Part shown: one piece after another, positions 2,140 through 21,120 of the stretch
Layout: the number at the start of each line of letters is the position of its first letter
Numbering within the stretch: position 1 is the stretch's first letter
Source: Oscillospiraceae bacterium
GTDB lineage: Bacteria; Bacillota_A; Clostridia; Oscillospirales; Oscillospiraceae
Length of the DNA stretch: 21,997 nt
Reading direction: 5' to 3'
NCBI GenBank assembly: GCA_017939025.1
Contig: JAGBAI010000140.1
Coordinates: 1-21,997, forward strand
Notes under the pieces: generated by a model
Databases searched by the model: none
Seen by the model: only the letters and a program-made list of their open reading frames with translations
What the model was told of the DNA's origin: nothing
Made by a program: the position numbers and the translations under genes

Positions 2140-2141
2140 GC

Positions 2142-3766: not shown

Positions 3767-3831
3767 GGCGATGCCTCCTATGCATGAGGGACCGCCCATT
3801 GAACCGTGAGCGGCCCAATGGTGTTTGATAT

Positions 3832-3869
3832 GTAAAAATAGGCCGCAGCTCATTTCTGAACTGCGGCCT
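3832..3869 (-). terminator. Terminator downstream of the mazF remnant
   Basis: On the minus strand a 9-10-bp GC-rich stem (3840-3848 with 3861-3869) with a 12-base loop is followed by TATTTTTACA. It would end transcripts from the mazF/sigma side before xis. Confidence 0.75.
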
Positions 3870-3886
3870 GGGTGTCGCTGTACCCA

Positions 3887-4222: not shown

Positions 4223-4292
4223 TCAAGGTTTGTAGCAGGGAGAAAAATAATCCCTTCACTGTGTAGGCATCGAGAACGCAGTTTTTACAACC

Positions 4293-4760
4293 TTAATTGA
4301 AATATTTTTTGATTTTCTGCAATCTTTTTGACACTGCCTGTTGAGTGCAACCCCATTCCTTCGAAATATCGTCCTGGTTTTTTCCATCGCAATAGAGAAG
4401 GGTGAGCAGCTCCTTGTCTTTTAAAGTTAGTGCCCCAACAATGGACTGTATCTGCGGATTACTACTACTCTCTAACCAACTGTAACGGTCATATAAGTCT
4501 GTATCGTTGAACGTAACTGACAACGCAGAATACTTTCGAAACAGTGTGCTGTTTTTATTCTCATCAGTATCAACACCAATGGTTTCCGGCATTTGTTGGG
4601 TATGAGAATAATATTTTCTACAGCTATTGAAGAACCGCAAATCATACTGATACATTTCTTCAATTGTTTCCGGTATCATGCCAGCGTTTTTATATTGGCG
4701 GCGAAGTTTTTCCCACTCGCGGTCAAACTTTGCTCTTTCTTTTGCGTAATGAAAACTCAT
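4293..4760 (-). CDS. Small sigma-70 region 4-like factor of the element
   Basis: The protein has 155 residues. The ATG at 4760 is chosen because GGAGG lies 7 bases upstream; the longer frame lacks a site. The N-terminal half is charged and helical (MSFHYAKERAKFDREWEKL). The C terminus carries a sigma region 4 type helix-turn-helix: LTLKDKELLTLLYCDGKNQ, then DDISKEWGCTQQAVSKRLQ. Small proteins of this type accompany xis and int in Tn916-like and other clostridial elements (Orf7-type), where they control element transcription. The ribosome binding site is buried in a long hairpin (4768-4815), so translation may be regulated. It could instead be a phage-type ArpU-like regulator. Confidence 0.72.
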   Translation of the reverse strand: MSFHYAKERAKFDREWEKLRRQYKNAGMIPETIEEMYQYDLRFFNSCRKYYSHTQQMPETIGVDTDENKNSTLFRKYSALSVTFNDTDLYDRYSWLESSSNPQIQSIVGALTLKDKELLTLLYCDGKNQDDISKEWGCTQQAVSKRLQKIKKYFN

Positions 4761-4767
4761 ATTGGTT

Positions 4768-4815
4768 CCTCCGTTTTCTGAAATTTTTGATGGGAGCAAA
4801 ATTTCAGAACGGAGG
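4768..4815 (-). promoter_or_regulatory. Long leader hairpin hiding the sigma-like gene's ribosome binding site
   Basis: Bases 4768-4787 pair with 4798-4815 (about 18 bp with a two-base bulge) around a 10-base loop. In the minus-strand mRNA the 3' arm ends in the GGAGG that serves the ATG at 4760. The folded form would block ribosome binding. No T-run follows, so a translational switch is more likely than a terminator. Confidence 0.6.
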
Positions 4816-4854
4816 CCCACGACAGCGCGGACTGGTTCCGGGCATATAAACAAA

Positions 4855-5161
4855 AACACACCCGCATTGCGGCACATAAGGCCGCACAACGAGTGTGTTG
4901 GTAAAGGCTATTTCATTGTTATGCTGAACCGTCAGTTCACGGAAGAGCCCGCAAATGCCCATCTGGGGGAACAGGCTTTTTTGATGGGCTACCATGAGTC
5001 AGCGCATTGTTCAGGCGGTATCATAACCGCTGCTTGAAATCAGCAGCGGAACACTGGATGCAGACCAGCGCATAAAAATCCTCCAATCCAAAACGCAGGA
5101 TTGGAGGGACTGACGCACGGGAAATCACCCCGCCAAAAGCTGCGTTTTTTATATGGCGGGG
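4855..5161. other. Gene-poor, highly structured intergenic stretch
   Basis: This stretch separates the sigma-like gene from the XRE gene. It contains four hairpins: 4855-4864/4890-4899 with an inner 4869-4873/4881-4885; 5027-5034/5042-5049 (8 bp); 5080-5089/5098-5107 (10 bp); and 5128-5134/5155-5161 (7 bp, long loop). The loop AAAACGCA of the third and TGCGTTTT of the fourth are complementary, allowing a kissing interaction. One short plus-strand ORF (4921-5037, 38 codons) lacks a good ribosome binding site. The stretch may encode a non-coding RNA or be an untranslated leader; the strand is undecided. Confidence 0.45.
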
Positions 5162-5201
5162 AGTGTTCTCTATTCATTACAACAAACTATGACATAGCAT
5201 G

Positions 5202-5262
5202 CACCTATAATTGAAATGTCACGCCATTATCAACATGGCATGAAAATATACAATTATAGGTG
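5202..5262. promoter_or_regulatory. Palindromic operator upstream of the XRE gene
   Basis: A perfect 12-bp inverted repeat (5202-5213 and 5251-5262) flanks the gene's leader. Each arm contains TATAAT, one facing each strand, so divergent -10 elements may be embedded in it. A smaller inner repeat (5223-5227/5235-5239) lies between. The right arm reaches the ribosome binding site. This is a plausible self-binding site for the XRE repressor. Confidence 0.5.
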
Positions 5263-5276
5263 GAGGTGAACCAACA

Positions 5277-5609
5277 GTGCATACAGTACCTGAATCACCG
5301 GGTGCAGTCATCAAGGAAGCGCGTCAAAAGACCGGCATAACGATGGAAAAGCTGGCTGAACGAGTTGGGATTACGGAACGCTACTTATATCGCATTGAAA
5401 ACGAAGGGCAGAAGCCCAGTTACGATGTTTTCATCAAACTGATCCGAGAATTGGCAATTGACCCCCGCGTTATAATCCATCCTGAATATCAGGATATGGA
5501 CGGCGAGGTCGGAGAAATCCTGCGGATGTTGTGTACCTGCGACAAGCGCTCCATGGAGGTCGTAAAGGCAACCATTCGTGCGTTGATAGATACGGCACCT
5601 GAAAAGTAA
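5277..5609 (+). CDS. XRE-family HTH regulator of the element
   Basis: The protein has 110 residues. It starts at GTG with GGAGGT 9 bases upstream. Residues about 10-70 form a classic Cro/C1 helix-turn-helix: VIKEARQKTGITMEKLAERV, then GITERYLYRIENEGQKPS and a following IKLIREL helix. The C-terminal 40 residues are a short helical tail. It is transcribed away from the sigma-like gene and sits behind a palindrome, like the Orf9-type repressor of Tn916 that faces the regulatory genes. It probably represses its own and the divergent promoter. A terminator follows at once, so it is monocistronic. Confidence 0.85.
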   Translation: MHTVPESPGAVIKEARQKTGITMEKLAERVGITERYLYRIENEGQKPSYDVFIKLIRELAIDPRVIIHPEYQDMDGEVGEILRMLCTCDKRSMEVVKATIRALIDTAPEK

Positions 5610-6791: not shown

Positions 6792-8285
6792 TCAAGGTTT
6801 ATTGAACCGCTTCCCGCCGCCGGAGATGGCGTCACGGGGACAGACCAACACGCAGAGATGACAACCCACACAGGCCTTGCCGTCCAGAATGGGCTTGCGC
6901 TCCGAAGGGTCAAAACGGATCGCCTGATGTCCGCCGTCCAGACAGGAGAGATAGCAACGCCCGCAGCCAATGCACCGCTCCCGATGAAATTTCGGAAAGA
7001 TTACGGTGTCCCGTTCAAGAGCATCGGTGTTTACAACATTCTCCACCGCCTGTCCGATCAGGTCATCTATCCGCTGGATTCCCCTTTGAGCCATATAGAT
7101 TTGCAGACCCAGCTTCAGATCGTCAATGATCCGATATCCATATTGCATGACCGCAGTGGTCACCTGTACGCTCCCTGCGCCCAGCAGCAGAAATTCCAGC
7201 GCATCCTTCCATGTCTCAACGCCGCCCATGCCGCTGATGTGGTGGCCCTTCACTTCCGGATCACCGGCCAACTCGGAGATAAAGCGCAGGGCGATGGGCT
7301 TGACCGCTGTGCCGGAATAGCCGCCCAGAGAGGATCGCCCCCGGACAGAAGGCGCCGCCACATAGGTGTCCAGATTGACGCCGGTGATGCTCTTGATGGT
7401 ATTGATGGCAGCAATGCCGTCGGCGCCTGCAGCAATGGCGGCACGGGCCATGGGCCGCATATCTGCAACATTGGGCGTCAGTTTCGCCAGCAGAGGGAGA
7501 TTGCTCCCGCGTCGGGCTGCACGGGTATATTGAGCCACCGCCTCCGGGTCCTGTCCCACATCCACGCCGACGCCTTTTGCCTCCATATGGGGGCATGAGA
7601 AATTGCACTCGATCACATCGGCTCCGGCCTCTGTCACCGCTCTGGCAAGATACTCCCATTCCGCTTCGTTCCGACCCATGATGGAAGCCAGCAGGATCTT
7701 GGAGGGGTAATCCCGTTTGAGTCGGCAGAACATCTCCAGATTTTCCTCCAACGCGTGGTCGGAGAGCTGCTCAATATTCTTGAATCCGTAAAAAGCCCCG
7801 TTGCCGTCTTTCAGCGCGGAGAAACGGGGTGATGCCTCGTGAATGTCCATCAGGCCAATCGTCTTGAAGGCTGCCCCGGCCCAGCCGGCATCAAACGCTC
7901 TGGCGCACATCTCATAGGTGCTGGCCACCACGGAGGAGGACAGCAGAAATGGATTTTCCATGGAGATGCCGCACATCTCACAGGACAAATCCACCTCCGC
8001 ATAGCGGGGAGCTTCCTCCATTTGTTCTGCGTCCTGCCGCAGGCAGTCCATCAGTTGCGGGATGTGTACGCCTGCGGGACAGGCCTGGAGACAGGGACCG
8101 TTGCACCCGGTACAGTCATTTTCCGACAGCAGTTGGGCGGCTCCGTCTGCATTTTCAAATCGAATCGCCCGGAGCAGTCGTGCCGGATCCATTTTCGGGC
8201 AAGCCATGGTACATGGCGCCGCGTGGCAGAGAAGACACCGATGCAGCTCGTTCTTTTCTGCGGAGAGTTGATGGTTGCGAAGCAT
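6792..8285 (-). CDS. preA: PreA-like dihydropyrimidine dehydrogenase with extra N-terminal Fe-S domain
   Basis: The protein has 497 residues. The central part (about 100-400) is a dihydroorotate dehydrogenase-type FMN barrel with ECNFSCPHMEAKGVGVDVGQ, AKLTPN, INTIKSITGVNLDT, SGMGGVETWKDALEFLLLGA and VTTAVMQYGY, as in bacterial PreA (reduction of uracil/thymine with NAD(P)H via PreT). The C terminus has two 4Fe-4S motifs, CIGCGRCYLSC and CVGCHLCVLVCP. The N terminus adds about 95 residues with two more CxxCx4CxxxC sets (Cys17, 20, 25, 29 and Cys58, 61, 65, 69), like the start of PreT/DPYD. I see no PreT gene. The ATG overlaps the phosphatase stop by one base (TAATG) with GGAGG before it, so translation is coupled. 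It is the last gene of the operon; substrate identity is not certain. Confidence 0.85.
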   Translation of the reverse strand: MLRNHQLSAEKNELHRCLLCHAAPCTMACPKMDPARLLRAIRFENADGAAQLLSENDCTGCNGPCLQACPAGVHIPQLMDCLRQDAEQMEEAPRYAEVDLSCEMCGISMENPFLLSSSVVASTYEMCARAFDAGWAGAAFKTIGLMDIHEASPRFSALKDGNGAFYGFKNIEQLSDHALEENLEMFCRLKRDYPSKILLASIMGRNEAEWEYLARAVTEAGADVIECNFSCPHMEAKGVGVDVGQDPEAVAQYTRAARRGSNLPLLAKLTPNVADMRPMARAAIAAGADGIAAINTIKSITGVNLDTYVAAPSVRGRSSLGGYSGTAVKPIALRFISELAGDPEVKGHHISGMGGVETWKDALEFLLLGAGSVQVTTAVMQYGYRIIDDLKLGLQIYMAQRGIQRIDDLIGQAVENVVNTDALERDTVIFPKFHRERCIGCGRCYLSCLDGGHQAIRFDPSERKPILDGKACVGCHLCVLVCPRDAISGGGKRFNKP

Positions 8286-9703
8286 TATTTCCCTCCTTCA
8301 TATCCGTTATCTGTTTTTTCTTTTGCCGGGCCAAGGTAGCATAGGCCCAGCATTGTAATGTCGTCAAATTGCGGCGCATCTCCAACAAACGCATCCACAT
8401 CGTCTTTGACGATTTTCAGCAGTGTTTCCGGCCCGCTGTCTGCATGGGCATTGAGGGTATCACACAGGCGCTGGTCTCCGTAGAGTTGCCTGTTTTCATT
8501 TGTAGCCTCTGTCACACCGTCTGTATAGAGATAGACCGCATCTCCCGGCAACAGCTCCAAGCTGGCGGGACGATAGCGCATCCCGTCCATCCCAGCCAAA
8601 ATAAAGCCGGAACGGGTGCGTAGAAACTCATATTTTCCGCCGTTGCGCCGCAGCAGGGGCGGGTTGTGACCCGCATTGACATAGGCGAGATGACCGGTAG
8701 TCAGCTCCAGCACACCCATCCAGGCAGTGACGAACATCCCCTCATCGTTGGCCTCGCAGAGCAGGCGGTTTACCTCGGTAAAGACCTCCTCCGGTTGCGC
8801 TCCCTGCTGGGCATGATCTTTAATGAGCGTCTTTGCAATGACCATGAACAGTGCGGCGGGAACTCCCTTGCCGGAGACATCGGCTATAACTACCGCCAGA
8901 TGGTCGTCATCCACCAGGAAAAAGTCATAGAAATCGCCGCCTACCTCCTTTGCCGGGTTCATGGTGGCATAGATGTCAAATTCCGTACGCTCGGGAAAGG
9001 CGGGGAAAATGCAAGGGAGCATGGAGGTCTGGATGTGGGTGGCTACGCTCAGCTCCGAGGCGATTTGCTGCTTCTCCGCGCTGTCCTTCACCTGACGCTC
9101 CAGGAGCCTCCGTGTACGATCCGCCAGCGTCGTGCAGATGGAGGTCAGGCCGCAGAGGATCAGGCTGCGGGGCAGTATGTAGAAGAGCACAACCCTCCGG
9201 ATGGTATTCGCCGTGACCACCCGGACGCCGCTTGTATCCAGTGCGTATAACAGGTTGCTGTCCCACTCGCCCACGTGAATGCCAATGAGCAGCGATGCCG
9301 CCATGCATACCACGGAGACCGTCAACAGGCTGTAAGAAAACTTCTTGGAGTAATAATGACAGCCCAGAATAATGGGCGCCGGCCACGCCATGATAGCGTG
9401 CTTGGGCAGGGCGGCAGACATGAGCGTGATACCCAGGATGCAGCACAGCAGGATGTAGAGCTTCAGTCTAGGAGAATCTCTGTCCAGCAGGCGGAGCAAC
9501 AAAGTCGGAAGCAGAAACAGCACAATACCGCCGATAGCAGCAATGGCCATGATCACAGGAGGAACGATAAACAGGTGGAGAAGGTTCATCGCCCAGATGA
9601 CCGCCACGACTACGGCAAGCACCCGCATACACCTTGCGGCATACAGGTTAGCTTCTTTTTCATTCTCCGCAAAGGCGGCGGAATAGTCAAATTCGTTTAT
9701 CAT
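8285..9703 (-). CDS. Membrane SpoIIE/RsbU-type PP2C phosphatase
   Basis: The protein has 472 residues. About six membrane helices occupy residues 25-190, followed by a helical linker (LADRTRRLLERQVKDSAEKQ and SVATHIQTSMLP) and a PP2C-type SpoIIE domain (about 240-458). The metal-binding motifs are present: EVGGDFYDFF (Asp257), VVIADVSGKGVPAALFM (Asp275), VNAGHNPPLL, YLYTDGVTEATN and a final FDDITML (Asp447, Asp448). In partner-switching systems this enzyme removes phosphate from a STAS protein; the STAS gene lies 40 bases upstream. The membrane part is not a domain I can name and may sense a signal in or near the membrane, for example transporter state. Confidence 0.92.
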   Translation of the reverse strand: MINEFDYSAAFAENEKEANLYAARCMRVLAVVVAVIWAMNLLHLFIVPPVIMAIAAIGGIVLFLLPTLLLRLLDRDSPRLKLYILLCCILGITLMSAALPKHAIMAWPAPIILGCHYYSKKFSYSLLTVSVVCMAASLLIGIHVGEWDSNLLYALDTSGVRVVTANTIRRVVLFYILPRSLILCGLTSICTTLADRTRRLLERQVKDSAEKQQIASELSVATHIQTSMLPCIFPAFPERTEFDIYATMNPAKEVGGDFYDFFLVDDDHLAVVIADVSGKGVPAALFMVIAKTLIKDHAQQGAQPEEVFTEVNRLLCEANDEGMFVTAWMGVLELTTGHLAYVNAGHNPPLLRRNGGKYEFLRTRSGFILAGMDGMRYRPASLELLPGDAVYLYTDGVTEATNENRQLYGDQRLCDTLNAHADSGPETLLKIVKDDVDAFVGDAPQFDDITMLGLCYLGPAKEKTDNGYEGGK

Positions 9704-9743
9704 ACCACCTCTTACCTACCATTCCTATCATACGGAACAATGA

Positions 9744-10043
9744 TTACTTGATCGTGATGATGTCCACAAAACCGGTGACCTCAAATACCTCCATAATGGT
9801 CTCGTTGACATTCACGATCACCATTTCTCCGCCTTGTTTTTGCATCTGCTTCTGGGCCGCCAGAAGGACACGAAGGCCAGCGGAGGAGAGGTACTCCAGT
9901 TTTTCCAGATCCAGAACCAGTTCCTTTACCTCATACAGACAAACTTTAAACTCGTTATCCAGCTGCGGGGCGGTGGTGGTGTCCAGACGGTCCTCCAGGG
10001 CCATCACCATTTTGTCGCCATCCATTTTTTTGCTGATCGTCAT
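9744..10043 (-). CDS. STAS-domain anti-anti-sigma-type protein
   Basis: The protein has 99 residues and is a single STAS domain of SpoIIAA/RsbV size. The segment LVLDLEKLEYLSSAGLRVLL holds the usual phospho-acceptor serine position at the start of helix 2, and the C-terminal FEVTGFVDIITIK is typical. Such proteins are phosphorylated by an RsbW-type kinase, dephosphorylated by a SpoIIE-type phosphatase, and bind the kinase when unphosphorylated. Both partners lie next to it in the same operon, with a 17-base gap to the gene before. No sigma factor is encoded in the operon, so its binding partner may be something else. Confidence 0.9.
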   Translation of the reverse strand: MTISKKMDGDKMVMALEDRLDTTTAPQLDNEFKVCLYEVKELVLDLEKLEYLSSAGLRVLLAAQKQMQKQGGEMVIVNVNETIMEVFEVTGFVDIITIK

Positions 10044-10060
10044 TGTAATTTCCTCCTCAG

Positions 10061-10651
10061 TTAATTCGTTGTATTGTGAAATGTTTTATGGACTGTGATA
10101 ACCACTTTGTCCCGGCGCAGACCCACCCGAACATCGTCAGCCAAATGCGACAGAATGGACGTTTCCAATTCATCCCACTTTGCCGCCTTCCGTTCCCGGG
10201 CAGTATAATTGCGCATTCGGACCAGAGACCACTCATCGGAGACACCATCGTGAAAGCCGCCGGCAAAAGCATTTCCCCGTCCGGCAGGATCTCCCCCCTG
10301 GCTATACCAGTCAGCGACCATGCGCACTTTTCCAGCAACGCCCTGATAAAGTATGTTCTCTCCGGTGGAGGATGCGTCCAGCAGTTTTTTCTGCGCCCTT
10401 TCTCCCACGGGGAAGGTTTTGGCAGAGAGCTGGAGACGGTATTCTCCATCCCTCAGTTCAATAGTGAAGGAGCCGTCCCGCACCTCTGTCACACCATTGA
10501 CCACCCCCAGCAGTTCCTCCGCCAAAAGGCGCAGATGCAGAGATTGTTTGCTTGTCAGACCAGTCTCTTTTGCAAACTTGTCTGCTTCCCGCAGAGCGGC
10601 TGCCGTGGCGTCACGGCTGCCGTCAACGGGACAAATTGCAGATGATTTCAC
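10061..10651 (-). CDS. RsbW-like (GHKL-related) protein, degenerate
   Basis: The protein has 196 residues if it starts at GTG (10651) with GGGAGGA 7 bases upstream. It lies between the RsbW-type kinase (16-base gap) and the STAS gene (17-base gap). Residues 13-52 resemble the first helices of the RsbW fold, with SLHLRLLAEELLGVVNGV as an N-box-like segment (Glu45, Glu46). The region after it gives RDGEYRLQLSAKTFPVG and GVAGKVRMVADW where an RsbW protein has its G1 and G2 boxes, but the Asp-x-Gly and Gly-rich motifs are missing. ATP binding is therefore doubtful. It may be a scaffold or decoy that binds the STAS protein. Identification as a GHKL relative rests on pattern and context. Confidence 0.6.
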   Translation of the reverse strand: MKSSAICPVDGSRDATAAALREADKFAKETGLTSKQSLHLRLLAEELLGVVNGVTEVRDGSFTIELRDGEYRLQLSAKTFPVGERAQKKLLDASSTGENILYQGVAGKVRMVADWYSQGGDPAGRGNAFAGGFHDGVSDEWSLVRMRNYTARERKAAKWDELETSILSHLADDVRVGLRRDKVVITVHKTFHNTTN

Positions 10652-10667
10652 ATAGATTCCTCCCAAA

Positions 10668-11078
10668 TCATTTAATTTCTTTTTTAATGGTCAGGATGTT
10701 TTTTCCGTTCTCATGGGCGTAGTCCACCTGATCCATGATTTTCTTTACCAACAGAATCCCCAGTCCGCCAATCTCCCGATCCTGTGCGCTCAGAGTGATA
10801 TCCGCATCGGGTTTTTCCAGCGGGTTAAACGGTCGTCCCTGATCCAGAAACCGGATCGTTACTGTAGGCGGGTCACCGTCAATATCCACACCGACCTCCG
10901 CCTGCCCAACCTCCGGATGATACGCATAGCTGGAGATGTTGACGAAGATTTCCTCCACAGCCAGCTTCATCTGCATCCGGGCCCGTTTTGGACAGTCGAT
11001 GGCCTCAAGTTTTTTCTGAATAAAGGTATTGACGGTCTCCAGCGCCGCTGATTCCGCAGGTACAGTAATGATCTCCAT
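10668..11078 (-). CDS. RsbW/SpoIIAB-type serine kinase (HATPase_c)
   Basis: The protein has 136 residues. The ATG at 11078 follows AAAGGTGG at about 10 bases. It is a compact GHKL ATPase: N-box MKLAVEEIFVNISSYAYHPE (Glu43, Asn47), G1 box FLDQGRPFNPL (Asp79, Gly81) and G2 box EIGGLGILLVKKIMD (Gly104-Gly107), ending with the usual GKNILTIKKE strand. The family phosphorylates a STAS protein and normally sequesters a sigma factor. Here the STAS protein and phosphatase are downstream but no sigma gene is present, while three transporter proteins in the locus carry domains that look like this one. Confidence 0.92.
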   Translation of the reverse strand: MEIITVPAESAALETVNTFIQKKLEAIDCPKRARMQMKLAVEEIFVNISSYAYHPEVGQAEVGVDIDGDPPTVTIRFLDQGRPFNPLEKPDADITLSAQDREIGGLGILLVKKIMDQVDYAHENGKNILTIKKEIK

Positions 11079-11117
11079 AGCAGCATTACCACCTTTCAAA
11101 AAGTAAATTTAATGTTT

Positions 11118-12697
11118 TTACTTTCCTCGCAGCATCTCCACGTCCAAGCGGTCCAAGGATCCTGCCAGCTCCATCAACTCCGCCTGCAGGCAGAACAAGT
11201 TGACAGCCGTGCCAAAGAACTCCAGAATCACATTTAAGGCAAGGGTGATGGCCACTGCCTCAGATGGAATATTCAGCTGTAAAAACAGCATGGTATAGCA
11301 GGTCAGACCACCGCCAGGAACCGGCGGAGCCGCCACAGCCAGCACAACAGTGATGAGCAGGGCGCTGACCAGCCAAGCCGGCAAGATCGCCACGCCATAG
11401 ACTTCAGCCATACACAACCCGGCTGACAGGAAAATGACAGCCGCCCCCGGCATAAAACGACCTGCCCCAGAGGGATACCAAAATTGATGATTTGCCGGTC
11501 GATGCCCAACTGCTTCTCACAGAACTCCACATTTGTGGAGTAAGCGGCGGCCGAAGATGCGGTACTCAATCCGATGAGGAAAGTTGGCGCTACCTTTTTC
11601 ACAAAGGCGGGTAAGGCTACGCGCTTACGGATACAGACCAGTAGCAGATAAGCTGCACAGACGAGCACATGGCCCAACAGCATAATGGGCAGCAGCTTGG
11701 AGGCTCGCAGCAGAGTGGAAAGACTGCCGCTGAGGATCATATTGAAGATACTGCCAAACACAAAGAACGGTATCAGATTGCTGACCGCCTCCATGATGAG
11801 CTGGACAACAGAATTGGCCTGCTCCACAAAGGAAGCGACGGATGACACCTTTGCGCCCAGCACAAGCATAGCAAAACCGATTATGACCGCCACAAAGATG
11901 ATCTGCAGGGGATTTGCCTCTGTGAAGGGGGTAAAAAAGTTGCCCGGAACAATATCCAGCACCATTTGAAGAAGCTGAGAAGAATCCAGTGAGCTGCCAC
12001 CGTTCCCAGCCAGCGGAAAGAAAGGGAGCATGGTGGCTCCTGCCAGCAGCGTCAGGAGAAAGGACATGAGCAAAAAGCGCAGGATCATCCGTTTACCGAT
12101 TTTGCTCAGCGTAGCGGTGTCTCCGATACTGTAAACGCCCCATACCACAGAGAGGAAGATCATGGGACCGGCGATTGCGGTAAGCAGCCCCATAAAGGTA
12201 TTGAATACGGGCGCAATCAGCTGGATTGACAGGAAATTTTGTATATGCTCAGGCAGCAGGGTGCAAAGCCCACCGCACACCACTGCCAGAACGACGGAAG
12301 CCACCAGCAGAAGAACCTGTGAGGGTTTACGTCTTCTGGGTGTGAATATGATCTGGTTGACTCCGTTTTTATACTGCCAGACCGGTGCAATGCCCATACC
12401 TGCAAGGATGCCCCGTAGGATTTCACTACCTTCCTCCTCGTCGGCAAAAGGATCGTGTCGGATACCTGGAACAGACAGTTCAATGCGCAGCCGCCCCAGT
12501 CTTTTTACACACCGCTGGGAGAACGATTCGGTTTCACCCAAAATCTTCTGGTAATTCAGCAGCGTTTCCTCCATGGCCAGCCGGATACGAATCATGTCCT
12601 TATCGTCTACATTGGCCTCAGAAAGAAACTTTTCCGTTTCTTTTATCCTTGTGTCGATATTTTCATTTGACAGCATTGTGCATTTGATATCTGCCAT
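11118..12697 (-). pseudogene. SLC1/DAACS-type symporter with N-terminal RsbW-like domain, frameshifted
   Basis: Two overlapping frames (11303-12697 and the frame ending at 11118) form one gene of about 526 residues if one T is added in the T run at 11454-11457, where IPLGQVV continues into MPGAAVIFLSAG. Residues about 1-122 resemble an RsbW-like GHKL domain: IRIRLAMEETLLNYQ matches the kinase N-box with the same Glu-x3-Asn spacing (Glu44, Asn48), LRIELSVPGIRHDPF sits at the G1 position, and YKNGVNQIIFTPRR matches its last strand. From about 125 on it is a dicarboxylate/amino acid:cation symporter with about eight membrane segments, the serine-rich re-entrant loop (STASSAAAYSTN) and GIPLG. The loss of frame removes the last membrane part unless it is a sequencing error or bypassed. 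Confidence 0.8.
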
Positions 12698-12734
12698 CCC
12701 GTTTCATCACCATCCTATATCTTTTGGCGTCCTC

Positions 12735-13139
12735 TCAGGGTAGAAAGTCATAGGTGCAACTGATCTCCTCCATCAGCACGGAGGCCAGATTCAGCTCCTC
12801 CTTGATCTCGGCGGCCACAGCGTCCGCATCCGATTTCTCAATGAAGAAGAAGGTATATTATACGAGGGTATCGTTTCCATTGATCGTTTCACCGTCCACG
12901 AATCCTCCATAGGCCATGTATTCCGTATAGCCCAAGCCCCGGTCTGTGATCACTTTCCGAGCAATGTCTCGGGCGTCCTCTACGGACAACATCTGTGTCC
13001 CGGTTTCGGCATCATTCAGGCTGCAATAGGCGACGTATTTTCTCTGTACCTTTTCTATGTCGGGGCCGCCTGCGCCGCAGCCGGAAAGGCAGAGACAAAC
13101 CATCAAGAGTGTCAATGACAACACAATGGTCTTTTTCAT
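12735..13139 (-). pseudogene. Small lipoprotein gene with internal TAA
   Basis: It starts at ATG 13139 with a lipoprotein signal peptide ending in LCLSGC (lipobox), so the mature form would be anchored outside the membrane. The frame meets TAA at 12858-12860 after 93 codons, but continues open for 40 more codons as YTFFFIEKSDADAVAAEIKE and on through LASVLMEE to TGA at 12735-12737. The sequence on both sides reads as one protein, so the original product was about 134 residues. I do not recognise its family; the tail resembles a small alpha/beta domain. It lies between the ABC ATPase and the symporter and may be an extracytoplasmic partner of one of them. Confidence 0.7.
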
Positions 13140-13162
13140 CCTGAGATCCTTTCTGTTTCGTT

Positions 13163-14260
13163 TTATTCCTGCTTTAACTTCAACACCAGTTCATTTGTAA
13201 ATGTTTCGGGGCAGTCACACCGATAGGACGAACTCTTGCACAGACCTTTCACCAGAAGTATAGACAGTTCATCACCCTCATCAAGCGGGTTAAATGCCGG
13301 GCCCGCATACCGAACTGTCATACTGGTATCGTTATTCTCTTCGGAATACTCTACCAGCACCTGCATTTGAAGATTATTCCCCATTCTGGGCACCAGCGTT
13401 TGCATACAGAGTTCTTCAAATATATTCTGCATCCGGTAGATGGTTTTTTGCCCCATCTCATGCTTGCGGCCAAACTGCTCCAGCTGGCTGATGATACCGA
13501 TAAAGTCAAAATCCAGCGAGTCGATGAAGATTTCAAACACCTTCAAGCGGCGAATAAACTGCCGGGTACGCTCCCGCTGGGGATGGTCAAAAATCTGCTC
13601 CGGTGTGCCATCCTCGTAGATTTCGCCCTGATCCATATAAAATACACGGGTGGATACATCACGGGCGAATTTCATCTCATGGGTAACGATCATCATGGTC
13701 AGGCCCTGTTTGGCCAGATTCCGGATGACAGAAAGCACCTCACCCACCATTGTCGGGTCAAGGGCGGAGGTCGGCTCGTCAAAGAGGACGATCTCAGGCT
13801 CCATGGCCAGTGTTCGGGCAATGGCGGCCCGTTGCCTTTGTCCGCCAGAAAGCTCATCGGGATAGGCCAGCGCCTTGTCACCCAATCCCACCGCGCGAAG
13901 CAGCTCCATCCCTTTCTCATAAGCGTCCTGACGGCTTTTGCCTAAAAGGGAAACCGGACCGGTCATGATGTTTTCAATGATATTCATGTGGTGGAACAGG
14001 TTAAAGGACTGAAACACCATTCCCATCTTCCGCCTGAGAAGATGCACCTTGCATTTCGGGTCTGTGATGGCCTGACCATCAATGCAGATCTCTCCTGATG
14101 TGGGCGTTTCCAGCAAATTGATACAGCGAAGCAGGGTGGATTTTCCCGTGCCGGAGGGTCCGATAATAGAAATCACCTCACCCCGGCCAATCTCCGCGTT
14201 CACGTCTTTCAAGGGGGTAACATTGGGGTATTCTTTTCTTACATGGCGGATAGAGATCAT
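13163..14260 (-). CDS. Polar amino acid ABC transporter ATPase with C-terminal RsbW-like domain
   Basis: The protein has 365 residues. Residues 1-240 are a GlnQ/HisP-type ATPase: Walker A GPSGTGKS (34-41), Q-loop VFQSFNLF, signature LSGGQRQR (137-144), Walker [13 protein letters not shown] and switch His194. The family normally ends near residue 245. Here about 120 more residues follow that resemble the RsbW-type kinase of the same operon: [15 protein letters not shown] at the N-box, [17 protein letters not shown] at G1 and [10 protein letters not shown] at G2. The G1 Asp is a Tyr and the ATP lid is missing, so this copy probably cannot bind ATP and may be a protein-binding module. The start overlaps the upstream permease stop (ATGA), so the two are translationally coupled and form one transporter. 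Confidence 0.88.
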
Positions 14261-16503
14261 GACAGCTTCACCCCCTTTACCTTTCTTCTCTTTCGATCAG
14301 GTGTCACCTTTCGCTCAATGGGGCGGAGCAGCGAGGTCAAAAGCCATGCGATCAAGAAGTAAATGATTGCCGTGCTGATGAGGGGGAAGAACGCCTCATA
14401 GGTGCGGCTGCGAATAATGTCGCTCATCTTGGTCAGATCCTGTACGGCAATATAACCCACCACGGAGGTCATCTTGATCAGAGAAATAAACTCCCCCTTA
14501 AAGACCGGCAGGAACTGCCGCGCGGCCTGGGGCATGACAATCTGGAAAAATGCACGGGACCTGGTAAAGCCCAGCGCCAGCGCAGCCTCGGTCTGTCCCC
14601 GTTCCACTGACTGGATGCCTGTGCGGATCATCTCGCACACATATGCGGCCAGATTCAACCCAAAGCCAATGACCGCCACCCAGATGCTGCCCAGTCCGCT
14701 GCCGGCGAAAACGAGATAGAACAGGATCATCAGCAGCACGACCATGGGCGTACCCTGTAGCACCCGGATATAGACCTGGGCAAAGCCCCGGGCCAGGGGG
14801 TATTTGGAGATTTTCAGCAGACACAGGCCAAAGCCAAGAACAGACCCCAGAAGTGTTGCCAGCACAGAAATCAGTACCGTCGTACCGATGCCCTGAACAA
14901 TGAGCTGCCAGCGGTTCTCACGGATGAAGGTCTTTTCAAAGCTCTCCGCCAGAGAGGCCCAAAAGCTCTTCGCCTCTTCCTCGCCCCGAACCATCATCAC
15001 GGTGCCGCCGGAATAATCGGGTTCAGAGAAATAAACGCTTTCGGCCCGCTCCGCTGTCACGGCGATGCACGACGCCGCGATGTTATACCGCTCGCCCAAA
15101 CCGGGGATAAGGGCGGCAAAGTCCATGTTGTGGAGTTCCAAGGCATAGCCATAGGCAGCACAGAAGCGAACCGCAATATCGATTTCATAGCCCACGATCT
15201 GACCATTTGCCAGATAGGAGAATGGTGGATTTTCTGTGTTGGTGGCCAGCTGAAGGGTCCCATTCTCGCCGGTGAGTTCGGTCAGGTCGATGACCTTTTT
15301 ACTTTCATCGGAGCCAAACCAGATGCCGTCGATTTCCTCCAATGTGCCATCTGTCTTGATTTTCGTGAGGAACTCGTTCATTTGGTCCCGAAGGACTCCG
15401 CCCTCTTCGGTTTTTGGGAACGCAAACGCATAATCTGTTTCGCTCATCAACTGCGGGATGTAAGTAACGGCAGGATATTCCAGTTCCATATACCGGGCTA
15501 CCGGCTCGTCCGCCATAAAAGCGTCCAACTGATTGGTCGTGACGGAGTAAGCCATGTCGGGGATGTTGTTATAGTACGCCAGCTCGGCTTCTGGAAAGGC
15601 ATCCTGTGTCAGTGCATCAAATACGGAGCCGGTGAGAATGCCCAGGCGCACGCCGGGAGCGGTCAGAGATTCTATCGTTTGATAGCCCTGCATTGCGGTG
15701 GTGGAATCGTCCCGCACCATCACTGCTGTTTCAGACAGGAGATACCCTTCGGAGAATTCCAGCTTCTCCCGCCGTTCCGGGGTAGCGTTCAGGTTGGCCA
15801 TGATGCAGTCGATGTCCCCGCTCTCGGCAGCGGCAATGATCCCGCCGTAATCGTACACGGCGATCTCCACATCAGCGCCCAACCAGTAGGCAAAACGGTA
15901 GATCATTTCCAGATCGTATCCTGTAAGCGTGGTGCCCTTGTAATAGCTGAAGGGCTGCACCACGCCGGTGGTCCCGACCTTCAAATGATATGTCGGGAGT
16001 TCCGCTTTCGGAATGTCCGGCATTTGATCATCCGCCATGGTCACCCAACGGCGGTACATATCGTCCAGCGTACCTTCATCCCGAAGCTCCCGCAGGAACT
16101 GATTTACCTTTTGCGTCAGATTCGGAATCTCTGTTTTGGGAGAGATGCCCACTGCGATGTCCATAGTTTCGCCCAGACTTCCCTCCAGCAGCCTGACGCC
16201 CTCCACTTCGCCAGCAATTGCAAATTCCATCATGATGCGGTCATAGGCATAGGCATCCAGCTCTCCCTGCCGAACCGCAGCGTAGCCGGTCACATCGCTG
16301 CTGTAGAGCAGCATTTCCGCTTCGGGCAGATATTCCTCCACCGCAAACATACCGGCGGCGCCTTCGCCCACCCCGACGGAATACGCCTTGTCGTTGAGCT
16401 GTTCAATGGATGTGATTTCTGGCGTCTTTGTTTTGGAACAACCCACCAGCAGCACAGCCTGGATTAGCACGGCAACGGTTATCAGGATCCATTTTCTTCG
16501 CAT
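14257..16503 (-). CDS. Fused solute-binding/permease protein of an amino acid ABC importer
   Basis: The protein has 748 residues. A lipoprotein-like signal (LLVGC, Cys22) is followed by solute-binding modules of the SBP_bac_3 type and a HisM/GlnP-type permease (about 530-740, with the EAA-like [20 protein letters not shown]). It resembles GlnP-type fusions, but the lobes run in an unusual order: a lobe-2-like segment (33-155, ending [10 protein letters not shown]), a full protein of lobe 1 plus lobe 2 (173-397, ending [11 protein letters not shown]), then a lone lobe 1 (416-507, [10 protein letters not shown] ... YFSEP) joined to the permease. It pairs with the ATPase that overlaps its 3' end. 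The binding part would sit outside the membrane and supply polar amino acids. Confidence 0.88.
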
Positions 16504-16775
16504 AGGCGTACCCCTCTTTCAGACAGCGTAAACGGACTGTTCAGCCATCGACGGACTTCCTCCAGCGATGCAAACTCCATTCTTTGGTCATATAGTACGG
16601 CCAGTCCGACTCTCCATTCCTCCAGGGCATACCGCTCTACAGGGATATTCCTCAAATATGTGCGCAGCAGTCCCTTTGTCCCAAGAAACTGGAGTTCTTC
16701 TAGGGGCAGTCCACTGATCTCACACAAATCGTCAAGGAGGGCATCGCCGGGTGTATACGGCATCCATTTTTTCAT
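16482..16775 (-). CDS. Small conserved-looking protein of unknown function
   Basis: The protein has 97 residues. The second ATG (16775) is chosen because AGGAG lies 7-8 bases upstream, while the first ATG touches that site. I do not recognise it. It is soluble, helical and acidic, with PGDALLDDLCEISGLPLEEL and a C-terminal FASLEEVRRWLNSPFTLSER. The last 22 bases overlap the start of the solute-binding/permease gene, so it is made together with the transporter and may be an accessory or regulatory subunit. Confidence 0.65.
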   Translation of the reverse strand: MKKWMPYTPGDALLDDLCEISGLPLEELQFLGTKGLLRTYLRNIPVERYALEEWRVGLAVLYDQRMEFASLEEVRRWLNSPFTLSERGVRLCEENGS

Positions 16776-16825
16776 GACCATTCTCCTAACAGATCCAAAG
16801 TCGGAATCTCTATAACGAGATTTAC

Positions 16826-17668
16826 TTAGTTCAATGGCAAAAATTTTTCATACAGGAGCTTTGCAAACTCCGCGCTGGTGTAGGCGGCAAACTTTTGGTA
16901 GTCATCCGATTTTTCGCCATCAGCGTAGTCGCTGACTCCCTTAATCACCAGCGCATATGGTTGTGGCTGCGCTGCATTCTCTGCCGCATACATCACTGCA
17001 TAGGACTCCATATCCAGACCAATGGTATGCGGGAACTGGGAATAAACCTGTTTATCGAGGATCTCTCTGTTTGCCACCACTGTGCTTCCGCAGGCCATGG
17101 GGCCTGTGTGTATATGGCACTGGTTTTCACTTGAATTTGCGGCCAGCTCCACATATTCTCTGATTCTCGGATCCATCTGTATAACAGTTGGCCTGGGAAG
17201 AAATCCAACTCCGCCGAATTGGATATCGGCGCTGTCTGCGCTGACGAACTTACCCGCAGCATAATTCCAGATCATGTCTGCCACGACCACATCTCCAAAG
17301 AACTGTTCATCCGTTTTCTGCACGGAGACCCCTGCCGCAATGCCAAGCGTAAGCAAATACCGGGGACGAAACCGTTGGATCAGCTTCATAGACAGCACAG
17401 CTGCCGCCGTCATGCCCATTTCACCCTGCTGCGCAAAAACTACCTTGTAACGGATGCCATCCCGTTCAAACGCAGATGTGTAATAGGTTTGATCTTCTCC
17501 ATCAAACCTGTGTTCCTGCCACTGCTTATAAAGTGTTTTGACGCCGGCACTTTCTGTTGCTGTGGCAGTGATCAAAGCAACATGATAATCATATCCAGAT
17601 TGCGATTGCCCTTGTTGGGAAACCCGAAAAATAATGATCCCTCCTAAATTAGCATTTGACGCTTTCAT
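16826..17668 (-). CDS. MTA/SAH nucleosidase-like protein (PNP/UDP phosphorylase superfamily)
   Basis: The frame has up to 280 residues. It shows the superfamily core: HVALITA near the start, LTLGIAAGV (107-114), FGDVVVAD, CGSTVVAN (193-200), GLDMESYAV (Glu221) and KGVSDYAD with catalytic Asp247. These enzymes cleave purine nucleosides such as methylthioadenosine. The identity of the nucleoside cannot be read from sequence. It is the first gene of the long minus operon. The start is uncertain: the ATG at 17668 abuts a predicted -10 box and lacks a ribosome binding site, whereas AGGAGGG at 17639-17645 stands 6 bases before an ATT (17632). A start at ATT would give 268 residues; the conserved domain begins after both. 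Confidence 0.82.
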   Translation of the reverse strand: MKASNANLGGIIIFRVSQQGQSQSGYDYHVALITATATESAGVKTLYKQWQEHRFDGEDQTYYTSAFERDGIRYKVVFAQQGEMGMTAAAVLSMKLIQRFRPRYLLTLGIAAGVSVQKTDEQFFGDVVVADMIWNYAAGKFVSADSADIQFGGVGFLPRPTVIQMDPRIREYVELAANSSENQCHIHTGPMACGSTVVANREILDKQVYSQFPHTIGLDMESYAVMYAAENAAQPQPYALVIKGVSDYADGEKSDDYQKFAAYTSAEFAKLLYEKFLPLN

Positions 17669-17696
17669 TTTATAAAAGTGAAAGAGATAGTTTCAA
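17669..17696 (-). promoter_or_regulatory. Promoter of the minus-strand transporter/partner-switch operon
   Basis: TTGAAA (17691-17696), a 16-bp spacer and TATAAA (17669-17674) form a sigma-A-like promoter on the minus strand. Transcription would start within or after the ATG at 17666-17668, which argues against using that ATG. Confidence 0.6.
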
Positions 17697-17708
17697 TGCT
17701 ATTGCCCC

Positions 17709-17761
17709 AAATGTGACGAACCAGTGATTTTTTCTTACAAAGTCACTGGTTCGTCACATTT
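17709..17761. repeat. 19-bp perfect inverted repeat between the divergent operons
   Basis: Bases 17709-17727 are exactly complementary to 17743-17761 around a 15-base loop. The repeat lies between the two outward-facing promoters, where a terminator would have no obvious use. It may be an operator or a supercoil-driven cruciform; a transcript end from either side cannot be excluded. Confidence 0.75.
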
Positions 17762-17772
17762 CTTTGAAATTC

Positions 17773-17801
17773 GGGACATGCCGAATAGGAGCCGTTATAA
17801 T
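17773..17801 (+). promoter_or_regulatory. Promoter of the plus-strand transporter operon with overlapping palindrome
   Basis: A consensus -10 TATAAT (17796-17801) stands 17 bp from GGGACA (17773-17778), a weak -35. An inverted repeat ATTCGG/CCGAAT (17769-17774/17781-17786) overlaps the -35 and could be an operator. The leader to the first ATG is about 50 bases. Confidence 0.6.
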
Positions 17802-17858
17802 GTGTGAAGTAAAAATACTTTTTCTGAAGATCACATTCAAACAGGAGCGGGATAACAA

Positions 17859-18527
17859 ATGGCGGATGCACTCCATTCTTTTCATGAATTTATATCCGGT
17901 ACATCCATGGATGTTGTCTGGTCTGGCCTCAAAACCACTTTGTTCATCACCGTGGCGGGTATGCTGTTGGGAACTCTACTGGCAGCGGCCCTGTGTGCTG
18001 CCTCCAGATCCAGATGCCGCATTTTGCAAGCAGCGGAACAAATATATTCGGTAATCATTCGAGGCATACCGGTGTTGATGCTGCTTCTGTTTTTGTTCTA
18101 TGTGGCGTTTGCCCGTTCCGGACTGTCTGCCCTGACAGTGGCAGTGATCGCCTTTGCCCTCAACAGCGCCGCCCATGTGGATGAGATTATGAAGAGTGCC
18201 CTGTCCACCGTGGATGAAGGGCAGGTCAAAGCGGCCCGGACGCTGGGTTTTTCCAGATGGCAGGCATTCCGCTATGTGACGCTGCCCCAGGCCTTTGCCG
18301 TTGCAAGACCGGTGTATCAGAGCGCCGTCATCAACACGCTTCAATGGACCTCCGTGGTGGGTTATATCACCATCAGCGACCTCACCCGGGTCATCAATCA
18401 GCTGGGCACACGGGCCTCCAAGCCCTTTTTCAGTCTGTTTCTGGGCGTGGTCATCTATCTGCTCATCGGTTATTTGATCCATCTGATTTTCTGGCTTCCG
18501 ACCCGGAAAGGGGGCGACAACCAGTGA
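17859..18527 (+). CDS. Polar amino acid ABC transporter permease
   Basis: The protein has 222 residues with about five membrane helices. The HisM/GlnP/ArtQ type is shown by [20 protein letters not shown] near the N terminus, the [17 protein letters not shown] helix and the ATPase-contact loop [20 protein letters not shown]. The start is an ATG with a GGGA-type site 6-7 bases upstream. Unlike its counterpart in the minus operon it carries no fused binding protein; a separate lipoprotein gene three genes on probably supplies that. Its last bases overlap the GTG start of the ATPase gene. Confidence 0.9.
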
Positions 18528-19621
18528 TTCGTGTAGAGAAGCTATGCAAATCCTTTGGCCCTTTGCAGGTGTTGCGGGATGTGTCCGTGGAGATCGGATG
18601 TGGCGAATGTGTGGCCGTGGTCGGGCCGTCCGGAACCGGAAAAAGCGTTTTCCTCTCCTGCCTCAATGGGCTTACAAAGCCGGACAGTGGAAGGGTGTTT
18701 ATCAGCGGCGTTGACATCTGCGACAAGGGAGCGGACATTGACCGCGTCCGGCAAAAGATGGGGATGGTCTACCAGTCCTTCCACCTGTTCTCCCATCTGA
18801 GTGTCATGGACAATATCACCCTTGCTCCCAGAAAGCTGCTGGGCCTTTCGGCGGGAGAGGCGCAGGCAAAAGCAGAAGCTTTGCTGGAGATGGTGGGTCT
18901 GCGGGAGAAAGCTTTCTCCATGCCATCTACGCTCTCCGGCGGTCAGCAACAGAGAATCGCCATTGCCCGGGCCATGGCCATGGAGCCGGAACTCGTCCTC
19001 TTTGACGAGCCGACCTCCGCCCTCGATCCGGCCATGGTGGGCGAGGTGCTTGCGGTGATCCGGGCGCTTTCCAGACAGGGCCTCACCATGGTCATTGTCA
19101 CCCACGAGCTGGATTTTGCCCGGGAAGTGGCTGATCGGGTGCTCTACATGGATGACATGGGAATCTATGAAGCAGGAACACCGGAGGAAATATTCGATCA
19201 TCCAAAAAGAGAGCGTACAAAAGCGTTCATCCGGAGACTGAAGACATTCCAGTATGAGATCCCCTCCAAAACCTTTGACTTTTATCAGCTCTATACACAG
19301 ATAGAGTTGTTCTGCCAGAAATACCGCATCAGCAGGGAGACAAGCTATGGATTGCAGCTATGCACGGAGGAAAGCGTGTTCCATCTATTGAAACACAACC
19401 TTGCAAGCCGTATCCTGCTTTCCATTTCCTACAGTGAACAGAGCGGCGCCGCCATGCTGATGCTGGATTATGATGGACCAAACCGTGATCCCTTTTCAGG
19501 TGGTGAGGAGGATATCGGGCTGCAGCTTCTGCGTTCAAAAGCGGAGCAGATCCAGTATGAGAATAGTGAAGAAGGAAATCACCTGAAATTACAACTTTAC
19601 ACAGGGAGAGAGCGAATATGA
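18524..19621 (+). CDS. Polar amino acid ABC transporter ATPase with C-terminal RsbW-like domain
   Basis: The protein has 365 residues and starts at GTG 18524, overlapping the permease stop (GTGA). The longer open frame upstream is a shadow of the permease gene. Residues 1-240 are a GlnQ-type ATPase with Walker A GPSGTGKS (34-41), [20 protein letters not shown] and His194. It has the same length and motif positions as the ATPase of the minus operon. The extra C terminus (about 241-365) aligns in pattern with the other one and with the RsbW kinase: [20 protein letters not shown] at the N-box, [19 protein letters not shown] at G1 and [15 protein letters not shown] at G2. The nucleotide-binding residues are only partly kept. 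It likely senses or binds a partner-switch component. Confidence 0.88.
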
Positions 19622-21120
19622 AAACCTTTCTGTTGGGACTTTTGATCCTGGTTATTGGAGCAGCCCTTTATGGAAAGCTCTGCGAAAAAGTGTTCGGTCC
19701 CGATGACCGAAAAACACCGGCCTTTACCAAGCAGGACGGCGTGGACTATATCCCTATGAAGGGATGGAAAAACAGTCTGATCAACCTGCTGAACATCGCA
19801 GGCACCGGGCCGATCTTTGGCCCCATCCAGGGTATCTTGTTCGGCCCGATGGCCTTCATCACCATCCCTATCGGCAACATCATCGGCGGCGCCATGCACG
19901 ACTACTTTTCCGGCATGATCTGTCTGCGGGACGGCGGTTCCCAGATGTCGGAGACGGTGCGTCGGTACAGCAACCGTGGCGTATTCACAGTCTATCAGAT
20001 CTTTTGCAGCGTGCTGCTTCTGCTGGTGGGTGCGGTATTCATCTACACCCCCGGAGATATCGCCGCTACACAGGTTTTTGGCTTTGACGGCAAGGCTACC
20101 AGTATTTCCACATGGGTCATTTACGGCGTGATCTTTGCCTACTACCTGGCAGCTACGGTGTTTCCCATCGACAAGATCATTGGCCGGGTCTATCCCATCT
20201 TCGGGGCTGTGCTCTTATTTTCCGCCATTGGAATTTTTATCGGTATGTTTGTCAAGGGTTATCCTCTGACTGAGTTGTGGGGCAGTTGGGAGTCTCCGCT
20301 GGCCTATGTCGTAAAGGACGGCGTGCAGACATCGTTCAGCTATGCGTACTACTTCTCGGTAGAGCGGTTTTTCCCCACCTTCTTCATCACCGTGGCCTGC
20401 GGCATCCTCTCCGGCTTCCACTCCACCCAGACGGCCATCATCTCCCGCACCATGCGTAGCGAGCGGCAGGGCCGCATGACCTTCTACAATATGATGGTTC
20501 TGGAGGGCTTCATCGCCATGGTCTGGGCGGCAGCGGCCATGGGTGTCTACAATCTTGGGCTTCAGGCCGCGGACGCCAATCTGTATTCCTCCACCGTGGG
20601 CATCGTCTGCCGGGATATTCTGGGGAATGTGGGCGGCGTGGTGGCGCTGCTGGGAATCATTATCCTGCCCATCACCTCCGGCGACACCGCCCTGCGGGGA
20701 CTGCGGCTGGCCATCGCGGAGTCCCTCCATCTGGACCAGGGCAGCGGGAAAAAGCGCATGGCCCTCTCCAGCGTCGTTTTCGCGCTGGTGGCGGCGATTT
20801 TGGTGTTTGCCAAGGTTTCGCCCGATGGCTTCAAGGTGCTGTGGCGCTATTTTGCCTGGTCCAATCAGACCCTGTCTCTGTTTGCGTTTCTGGTCATTTC
20901 CGTCTGGATGTTCGAGCATGGGAAACAATGCTTTGTCTGGATGCCGCTCATCCCCGGCACCTTTTACGCCTTTGCCACGGTAACCTACATCATGAACGCA
21001 AAAATCGGCTTCCATCTCCCGTGGACAGCAGCCTACATCATCGGCGGTACAGCGGCAGCTGCCTATCTGGCTGTGGTTCTCTGGTACGGAAACAGAAGAT
21101 CTGCACGTCGATACCCGTAA
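19618..21120 (+). CDS. cstA: CstA-family carbon starvation carrier
   Basis: The protein has 500 residues and many hydrophobic helices. CstA hallmarks are present: [66 protein letters not shown] and [12 protein letters not shown]. The family imports pyruvate or peptides; the substrate here is unknown. The ATG overlaps the ATPase stop (ATGA), so it belongs to the ABC operon, an unusual setting for cstA. It is shorter than E. coli CstA (about 700) and close to the size common in Clostridia. Confidence 0.92.

Follow-up and report, generated by a model that had tools for sequence, protein, structure and literature searches.

Partner switching with transporters as probable effectors: a SpoIIE/STAS/RsbW module found mostly in Clostridia

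Introduction

What does a set of partner-switching proteins control when no sigma factor gene lies beside it? This question is raised by a gene array of an Oscillospiraceae bacterium, contained in the 21,997-nt stretch of DNA analysed here (assembly GCA_017939025.1, contig JAGBAI010000140.1, positions 1-21,997, forward strand; hereafter the window). The array encodes a SpoIIE-type phosphatase, a STAS protein, an RsbW-type kinase and a degenerate RsbW-like protein, together with transporter subunits which bear extra RsbW-like domains. In SpoIIAA/SpoIIAB and RsbV/RsbW, a phosphorylation cycle acts on the STAS protein and the unphosphorylated form binds the target. Partner switching has hitherto been known chiefly for freeing sigma factors, with few other effectors, while the domain described here occurs on four unrelated transporter families. 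In general terms, the kinase phosphorylates the STAS protein, the phosphatase reverses this modification and unphosphorylated STAS binds its target (PMC8256260, in extract).

We propose that the array is a partner-switching module with transporters as its effectors, reached by docking of the STAS protein on pseudokinase domains, and we consider this the probable explanation of the evidence presented below. According to this proposal, the RsbW kinase would phosphorylate the STAS protein at its conserved serine, and the membrane SpoIIE phosphatase would strip the phosphate, presumably upon a signal. Unphosphorylated STAS would then dock on the pseudokinase domains of the transporters, instead of or besides its kinase, and this docking would alter transporter activity. 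We infer the docking itself and its dependence on phosphate, as well as the direction and the sign (on or off) of the effect.

RsbW-like domains on transporters

The C-terminal stretch of ABC ATPase 1, one of two GlnQ-type ATPases of the window, is matched by 103 database proteins (E up to 1e-3). An AF2 model of this domain (pLDDT 92.5) has the predicted RsbW/SpoIIAB fold, with matches to Usfx, SpoIIAB, RsbW and SiaB (Foldseek, VIA). In profile-profile comparisons (hhalign), the family of ABC domains was related to RsbW/SpoIIAB kinases with E 7.6e-9 and that of the SLC1 symporter domains with E 1.1e-10; the ABC and SLC1 domains were related to each other with E 1e-7. A search of PDB sequences with the ABC domain profile gave no match, so the RsbW link of this domain rests on the fold and on the profile-profile comparison. 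The domain of ABC ATPase 2 reached an E of only 0.11 with Pfam HATPase_c_2; used as a phmmer query, it found the other ABC domains in most loci (E 1e-5 to 5e-14). The preliminary description had placed RsbW-like domains on these three transporter proteins. The profiles bear this out, with the predicted fold added for ABC 1 and relatives providing the link for ABC 2, except that the SLC1 reading frame is broken.

The pattern proved wider than that description, since MATE and NCS2 (xanthine/uracil) transporters carry the domain too. The MATE domains are related to the kinases with E 8e-21 and to the ABC domains with E 4e-17 (profile-profile). Twenty module-locus proteins, most of them picked because our own hidden Markov models (HMMs) had detected the domain, were scanned with Pfam, and 12 were identified as MatE, two as Xan_ur_permease (NCS2) and two as SDF (SLC1). 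HATPase_c_2 scored above its cut-off in 7 of the 12 MatE proteins, and likewise in one SLC1 frame (29.4 bits; the same protein read from a later start scored 25.5, just below). The NCS2 domain was recognised by our own HMMs and by these only (L012, E 2e-4 with the CTD model; L108, E 3e-6 with the RsbW model). The domain is thus borne by four unrelated transporter families, at the C-terminus of ABC ATPases, MATE and NCS2 proteins and at the N-terminus of SLC1 proteins. By the known topology of these families, the termini concerned are cytoplasmic.

A membrane protein of about 300 aa with an RsbW-like C-terminus and no Pfam family was also encountered (L034:2142-3068 and L112:6027-6926, the same genome region), adjoining a SpoIIE-RsbW fusion. 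It is perhaps a fifth target family.

The SLC1 gene of the window is represented by two open reading frames (ORFs), 11303-12697 for the first part and 11118-11453 for the remainder, the frame being broken near 11450. Database protein P0109 (464 aa), which represents nine sequences on nine contigs, is identical to the truncated product at 463 of 464 positions. The occurrence of nearly the same truncated product on nine contigs makes an error in a single assembly unlikely, and that population probably does carry the break. In other relatives the gene is intact, e.g. in L019.

Loss of the ATP-binding motifs

The motifs of the domains were counted after strict deduplication (kinases reduced from 61 to 60, ABC domains from 60 to 59, SLC1 domains from 15 to 12) and exclusion of domains shorter than 85 residues, in an automatic alignment of distant sequences against the kinase alignment. 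All 60 module kinases (37 stand-alone, 23 fused to SpoIIE) retain the asparagine of the N-box, the aspartate of G1 and the GGxG of the second glycine box. GGxG is retained in none of the 95 transporter domains (59 ABC, 21 MATE, 12 SLC1 and 3 NCS2). Among the ABC domains, asparagine is replaced by glutamine in 47/59 (retained in 3/59) and aspartate by tyrosine in 48/59 (retained in 1/59); the ATP-binding motifs of the HATPase_c_2/RsbW family are accordingly missing from the extra domain. The fact that most ABC domains share the same replacements suggests a conserved, non-catalytic role. SLC1 domains keep the asparagine in 5/12 cases, with aspartate and GGxG each in 0/12, and none of the three motifs is retained in the three NCS2 domains. 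MATE domains are less degenerate: both asparagine and aspartate are present in 9/21 and the last glycine of GGxG in 19/21, the complete box in 0/21. Judged by these motifs, the transporter-borne RsbW-like domains appear to be pseudokinases.

The switch proteins

The preliminary description had read from the window a single gene array encoding the phosphatase, the STAS protein, the kinase and the degenerate RsbW-like protein, and this was confirmed by Pfam and NCBIfam matches, motifs and a predicted fold. The tightly packed genes run on the minus strand from 16503 down to 6792, with a binding-protein/permease fusion first and a dihydropyrimidine-dehydrogenase-like protein last. The phosphatase carries GGDFYD, DVSGKG, GHNPP and DDITML, which we take to be the PPM motifs, and it appears, as far as its sequence tells, to be a SpoIIE/RsbU-type enzyme of the kind known from sigma-directed partner switches. 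The N-box and both glycine boxes are intact in the kinase (alignment A7). The STAS protein has the conserved serine within YLSSAGL and is predicted to be phosphorylatable.

The fourth protein (201 aa) is listed with 29 database proteins, near-identical ones included. Its AF2 model and PDB structure matches lead to SpoIIAB, and the model has a low-confidence stretch (120-147) roughly where the ATP lid would be expected. The profile comparison with RsbW was not significant (probability 1.8) and that with the ABC domain was weak (E 0.0013). It is the predicted fold, and that fold only, which identifies the protein as RsbW-like, because these profile comparisons failed or were weak. This free degenerate protein probably binds STAS as one more partner or competes for it. 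It may serve CstA-like transporters.

CstA-like genes recur in module loci L028, L139, L150 and L153; no extra domain was seen on them.

Absence of an adjacent sigma factor

A sigma factor encoded beside the switch, which would mark a sigma-directed system, was not found in the window with a sigma-F/G-type HMM (which could miss ECF sigmas), in agreement with the preliminary description. This HMM matched a single place in the window, residues 153-202 of an unrelated ORF (4296-4907, E 4e-5). The same question was asked of the RsbW-type loci, 30 in all, that the search returned for 16 genomes. Fifteen are spoIIA-like operons with an adjacent sigma-F-type gene and serve as a positive control; in the remaining 15, no sigma gene was detected within about 3.3 kb. 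In 14 of these 15 sigma-less loci, all except L090 (region L114), a domain fused to a transporter lies no more than about 10 kb away. The exceptions to the absence of a sigma partner are a weak match in L013 (E 0.003) and ECF-like genes near two ABC-domain copies of one genome, Formimonas (L108:11563-12162 and L110:9479-10093). Among 90 STAS domains, 74 have the motif Y-x-SS[AS]G[LI] typical of the module, and of the others, 15 of 16 of which were listed, 12 have MDSSG as in spoIIA-like operons, the serine being kept in 15/15.

These data bear on the view that the module is an ordinary transcriptional switch controlling an unlinked sigma factor, the transporter domains being bystanders or decoys. 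Its core enzymes are indeed of the same kind as those of sigma switches, sigma genes are encoded elsewhere in 16/16 genomes (among the matches listed), and there are the ECF-like genes of Formimonas. However, sigma genes adjoin the 15 spoIIA-like operons and are absent from the other 15 loci, and neither an ABC nor a MATE fusion was found without the kinase in the class sample described below. We regard a purely transcriptional role as improbable.

Linkage and co-occurrence of fused transporters and switch genes

A scan of GTDB species genomes yielded 40 ABC-domain loci, mostly from Clostridia, with additional ones from Phascolarctobacterium and one Spirochaetaceae bin. SpoIIE, STAS or kinase genes are present in the examined sequence of 24 of them, and of 11 of the 17 with long flanks on both sides. 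Linkage was quantified in 16 genomes, i.e. 16 of the 40 loci, from 43 of 59 SpoIIE matches (E <=1e-10), all 51 STAS matches and all 75 GlnQ-type ABC ATPases; the loci were chosen after their neighbourhoods were known, so the figures lean upward. A SpoIIE gene lies within 10 kb of 14/20 domain-bearing ABC ATPases versus 0/55 without the domain, and a STAS gene within 10 kb of 11/20 versus 0/55. With frame length taken as the indicator of an extra domain, 6/6 long SLC1 frames are near SpoIIE or STAS versus 0/18 others, and 3/3 long NCS2 frames versus 1/26 others (fragments being counted among the others).

The idea that the domain is a general feature of GlnQ-type ATPases was rejected: 55 of the 75 lack it, and none of these is near SpoIIE or STAS.

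Co-occurrence was assessed in 291 genomes from the class of genome G009, which is the centre of this sample. Apart from this centre, the sample does not share the selection bias of the 16 genomes. The ABC domain was found in 10 genomes and the module kinase in 41. The kinase is present in 10/10 ABC-domain genomes versus 31/281 others (Fisher 1e-9, kinship ignored), and when the sample centre is left out, in 9/9 versus 31/281. For MATE fusions (E <=1e-25, frames of 570-673 aa, each with MATE and the domain by Pfam or HMM) the figures are 18/18 versus 23/273 (p 1e-17, kinship ignored). The search with the MATE profile (A8) matched 43 genomes. These comprise the 41 with the kinase, in many of which the kinase itself was the sole match, and G238 and G261, which lack a kinase match and gave short frames (145 and 269 aa). 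Several fusions are on contigs other than that of the kinase, and the switch would then act in trans. Switch genes lie within about 10 kb in 5 of the 13 ABC-domain loci of nine class genomes.

The possibility that this co-occurrence merely reflects sporulation genes was considered unlikely, as the kinase query matched only 41 of the 291 genomes. Five spoIIA kinases match the module-kinase HMM weakly (2e-11 to 4e-5).

Transporters as targets of the switch, as suggested in the preliminary description, are thus well supported by comparative evidence from linkage, co-occurrence and domain homology, the docking and its effect on transport being the conjectural part. Several observations weigh against this interpretation. 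Sixteen of the 40 ABC-domain loci have no switch gene in the sequence examined (several are on short contigs), nor do 6/17 with flanks of at least 7 kb (left) and 9 kb (right), nor, within about 10 kb, 8 of the 13 loci of the nine class genomes. Loci without switch genes had been named beforehand as a point which would count against the proposal; they exist, while at the level of whole genomes the kinase accompanies every ABC-domain genome of the class sample. Seven of the 18 rows of the MATE profile derive from loci detected by way of the kinase, a bias towards kinase genomes, although 10 of the 18 positive genomes contributed no row to it, and the P values disregard kinship among genomes. 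Furthermore, the ABC domain is absent from 31 of the 41 genomes with the kinase, and around half of the kinase loci retrieved from the class sample showed no fused transporter in their vicinity, so the module may have other targets. The 9/21 MATE domains retaining asparagine and aspartate mean that some may still bind nucleotide, the SLC1 target of the window itself is frameshifted, and the ECF-like genes of Formimonas belong to this side of the balance as well.

Several transporters and several STAS proteins per switch

In L012, two MATE fusions, one NCS2 fusion and one ABC fusion are found together with one phosphatase, one kinase and three STAS genes; L024 has two STAS genes with one kinase and one phosphatase. 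In L038, from an isolate of the cultured commensal Butyricicoccus faecihominis, STAS, SpoIIE and kinase genes are accompanied by a MATE fusion and an ABC fusion. L012 and L024 contain several STAS proteins per kinase/phosphatase pair, as though there were one for each transporter. We put forward, tentatively and with slightly more doubt than belief, a form of plug-in control, in which one kinase/phosphatase pair and one or several STAS proteins would govern any transporter (ABC, SLC1, MATE or NCS2) that gains an RsbW-like receptor domain.

The architecture is compatible with either direction of signal flow. The transporters might instead be sensors, whose substrate-dependent shapes expose or hide the domain, titrate STAS and so inform the kinase and phosphatase, with the output elsewhere. 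Some transporters are co-sensors in other systems, and the gathering of four fusions around one phosphatase and one kinase in L012 can be counted in favour of this view. However, no recurrent alternative output gene was noticed in the mapped loci, in which a minority of the neighbouring genes had been annotated, and the very different substrates of the transporters fit an output better than a single sensor. A flow of information from transporter to switch is in our opinion unlikely, and we retain the reading of the transporters as effectors.

Within the modules, STAS is also found fused to a phosphotransferase-fold kinase (L147:5307-6911, L148:6837-8438, L151, L158, L161, L101:5896-7083, L154, L167 and L181). 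Pfam APH was found on the three such fusions scanned (L148, L101 and L181), and five of the fusions then carry an RsbW kinase domain. A second layer of phosphorylation on STAS is possible. In L101, a GH3-family protein (acyl-amido synthetase type; 1991-3670) is encoded between SpoIIE and a fused MATE gene.

Relation to known systems

The module resembles SpoIIE-SpoIIAA-SpoIIAB-sigmaF and RsbU-RsbV-RsbW-sigmaB in its three core proteins, the STAS serine and the SpoIIAB/RsbW fold of the ABC domain, and differs in that no sigma gene was found beside it and that degenerate kinase domains are fused to transporters. A switch with a non-sigma effector is represented by SiaABCD of Pseudomonas aeruginosa, in which the diguanylate cyclase SiaD is activated when unphosphorylated SiaC attaches to its stalk (PMC8457831, in part). 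SiaB is among the best structural matches of the ABC 1 domain. The effector of SiaABCD, however, is an enzyme bound through a stalk and not a transporter with an RsbW-like domain, and Pfam scans of proteins from the window and the loci, which covered part of the neighbouring genes, named no cyclase.

MlaF-MlaB provides another comparison. In it, a STAS protein is bound to an ABC ATPase, and binding is reduced when the STAS site carries a phosphomimetic residue; the C-terminal tail of MlaF serves self-dimerisation, and the authors report no evidence so far for phosphorylation of MlaB (PMC7367683). The pairing of a STAS protein with an ABC ATPase is shared, if STAS docks in the present case as proposed; the self-dimerisation tail of MlaF is, by contrast, no RsbW-like domain. 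This example gives substance to a structural alternative, in which the domains would serve dimerisation or stability, with STAS as a constitutive subunit and no phospho-switch. RsbW-type proteins dimerise, and MlaB binds MlaF and is required for its stability (same source). Against such a role stand the co-occurrence of the kinase with the fused transporters and the retention of the STAS serine, and we give it little credence. MetN, ModC and MalK are likewise ABC ATPases with C-terminal regulatory domains (PMC7367683, in part). A regulatory-type C-terminal domain is thus common to them and to the ATPases considered here, although theirs have ferredoxin-like or TOBE folds and small-molecule or other protein partners.

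Among the titles and beginnings of abstracts covered in the open-licence PMC literature, no report of transporters as partner-switch effectors was seen. The comparisons point to partner switching with transporters as what would be a new class of effector. If this is true, it accounts for those SpoIIE/STAS/RsbW gene sets of Clostridia which lack an adjacent sigma partner, offers a way to act post-translationally on the transport of amino acids and purines and on efflux in gut bacteria, and illustrates how a degenerate kinase can turn into a portable receptor domain. Plug-in control, if it exists, would coordinate uptake and efflux post-translationally across the whole cell, in Clostridia and their relatives, by means of sporulation-type parts. 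Inducer exclusion by the phosphotransferase system plays a comparable role. The proposal is directly testable using small soluble proteins.

Genes of the window

The features are listed in Table 1. The start of ABC ATPase 2 was inferred from the beginning of its ABC match. The binding-protein/permease fusion is the likely partner of ABC ATPase 1, and the divergent plus-strand locus encodes a binding protein in addition to the permease, ABC ATPase 2 and the CstA-like transporter.

Table 1. Features of the window, with the evidence for each assignment
Feature	Positions	Strand	Basis and remarks
Dihydropyrimidine-dehydrogenase-like protein	6792-8285	-	DHO_dh + 4Fe-4S; 1-base overlap with SpoIIE gene
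SpoIIE/RsbU-type membrane phosphatase, 472 aa	8285-9703	-	Pfam SpoIIE E 1.3e-52; motifs
STAS protein, RsbV/SpoIIAA type, 99 aa	9744-10043	-	Pfam STAS E 5e-19; NCBIfam ant_ant_sig E 3.9e-21, over cut-off
Degenerate stand-alone RsbW-fold protein, 201 aa (196 aa from later ATG)	10061-10666	-	Predicted fold
RsbW-type serine kinase, 143 aa	10668-11099	-	Pfam HATPase_c_2 E 1.1e-24; alignment and motifs
SLC1 (SDF) symporter gene, frame broken near 11450	11118-12697	-	Pfam SDF E 1.9e-44 and 1.2e-10 (two ORFs)
N-terminal RsbW-like domain of SLC1 protein, ~124 residues	12326-12697	-	hhalign of family against RsbW kinases
Small lipoprotein-like ORF, 93 aa	12858-13139	-	Between ABC ATPase 1 and SLC1 genes
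GlnQ-type ABC ATPase 1, 365 aa, with C-terminal RsbW-like domain	13163-14260	-	Pfam/NCBIfam and profile matches
C-terminal RsbW-like (putative pseudokinase) domain of ABC ATPase 1, ~130 residues	13163-13552	-	Fold and hhalign
Amino-acid binding-protein/permease fusion	14257-16503	-	Pfam SBP_bac_3 + BPD_transp_1
Nucleosidase-like gene	16826-17668		
Amino-acid ABC permease, divergent locus	17859-18527	+	HMM of binding-protein/permease fusion, E 1e-69
GlnQ-type ABC ATPase 2, with C-terminal RsbW-like domain	~18524-19621	+	Pfam/NCBIfam/HMM
C-terminal RsbW-like domain of ABC ATPase 2	19232-19621	+	phmmer cross-matches to other ABC domains; alignment A1
CstA-like transporter overlapping ABC ATPase 2	19618-21120	+	NCBIfam CstA E 1.6e-16, below cut-off

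The small lipoprotein-like ORF ends at an in-frame TAA (12858-12860), beyond which the same frame, read by eye, is open to 12735. In the relative L019, the ABC and SLC1 genes are too close together to accommodate such an ORF. The DHO_dh protein and the nucleosidase-like gene, together with the NCS2 targets found elsewhere, hint at purine/pyrimidine metabolism.

Only tRNAs were matched in the window by Rfam at gathering cut-offs. A tRNA cluster, followed by a recombinase-like ORF (2142-3455) and small regulators, occupies 1129-5609. The ORF presumably encodes a tyrosine recombinase, which it resembles in its motif, and the region is probably an integrated element adjoining the module.

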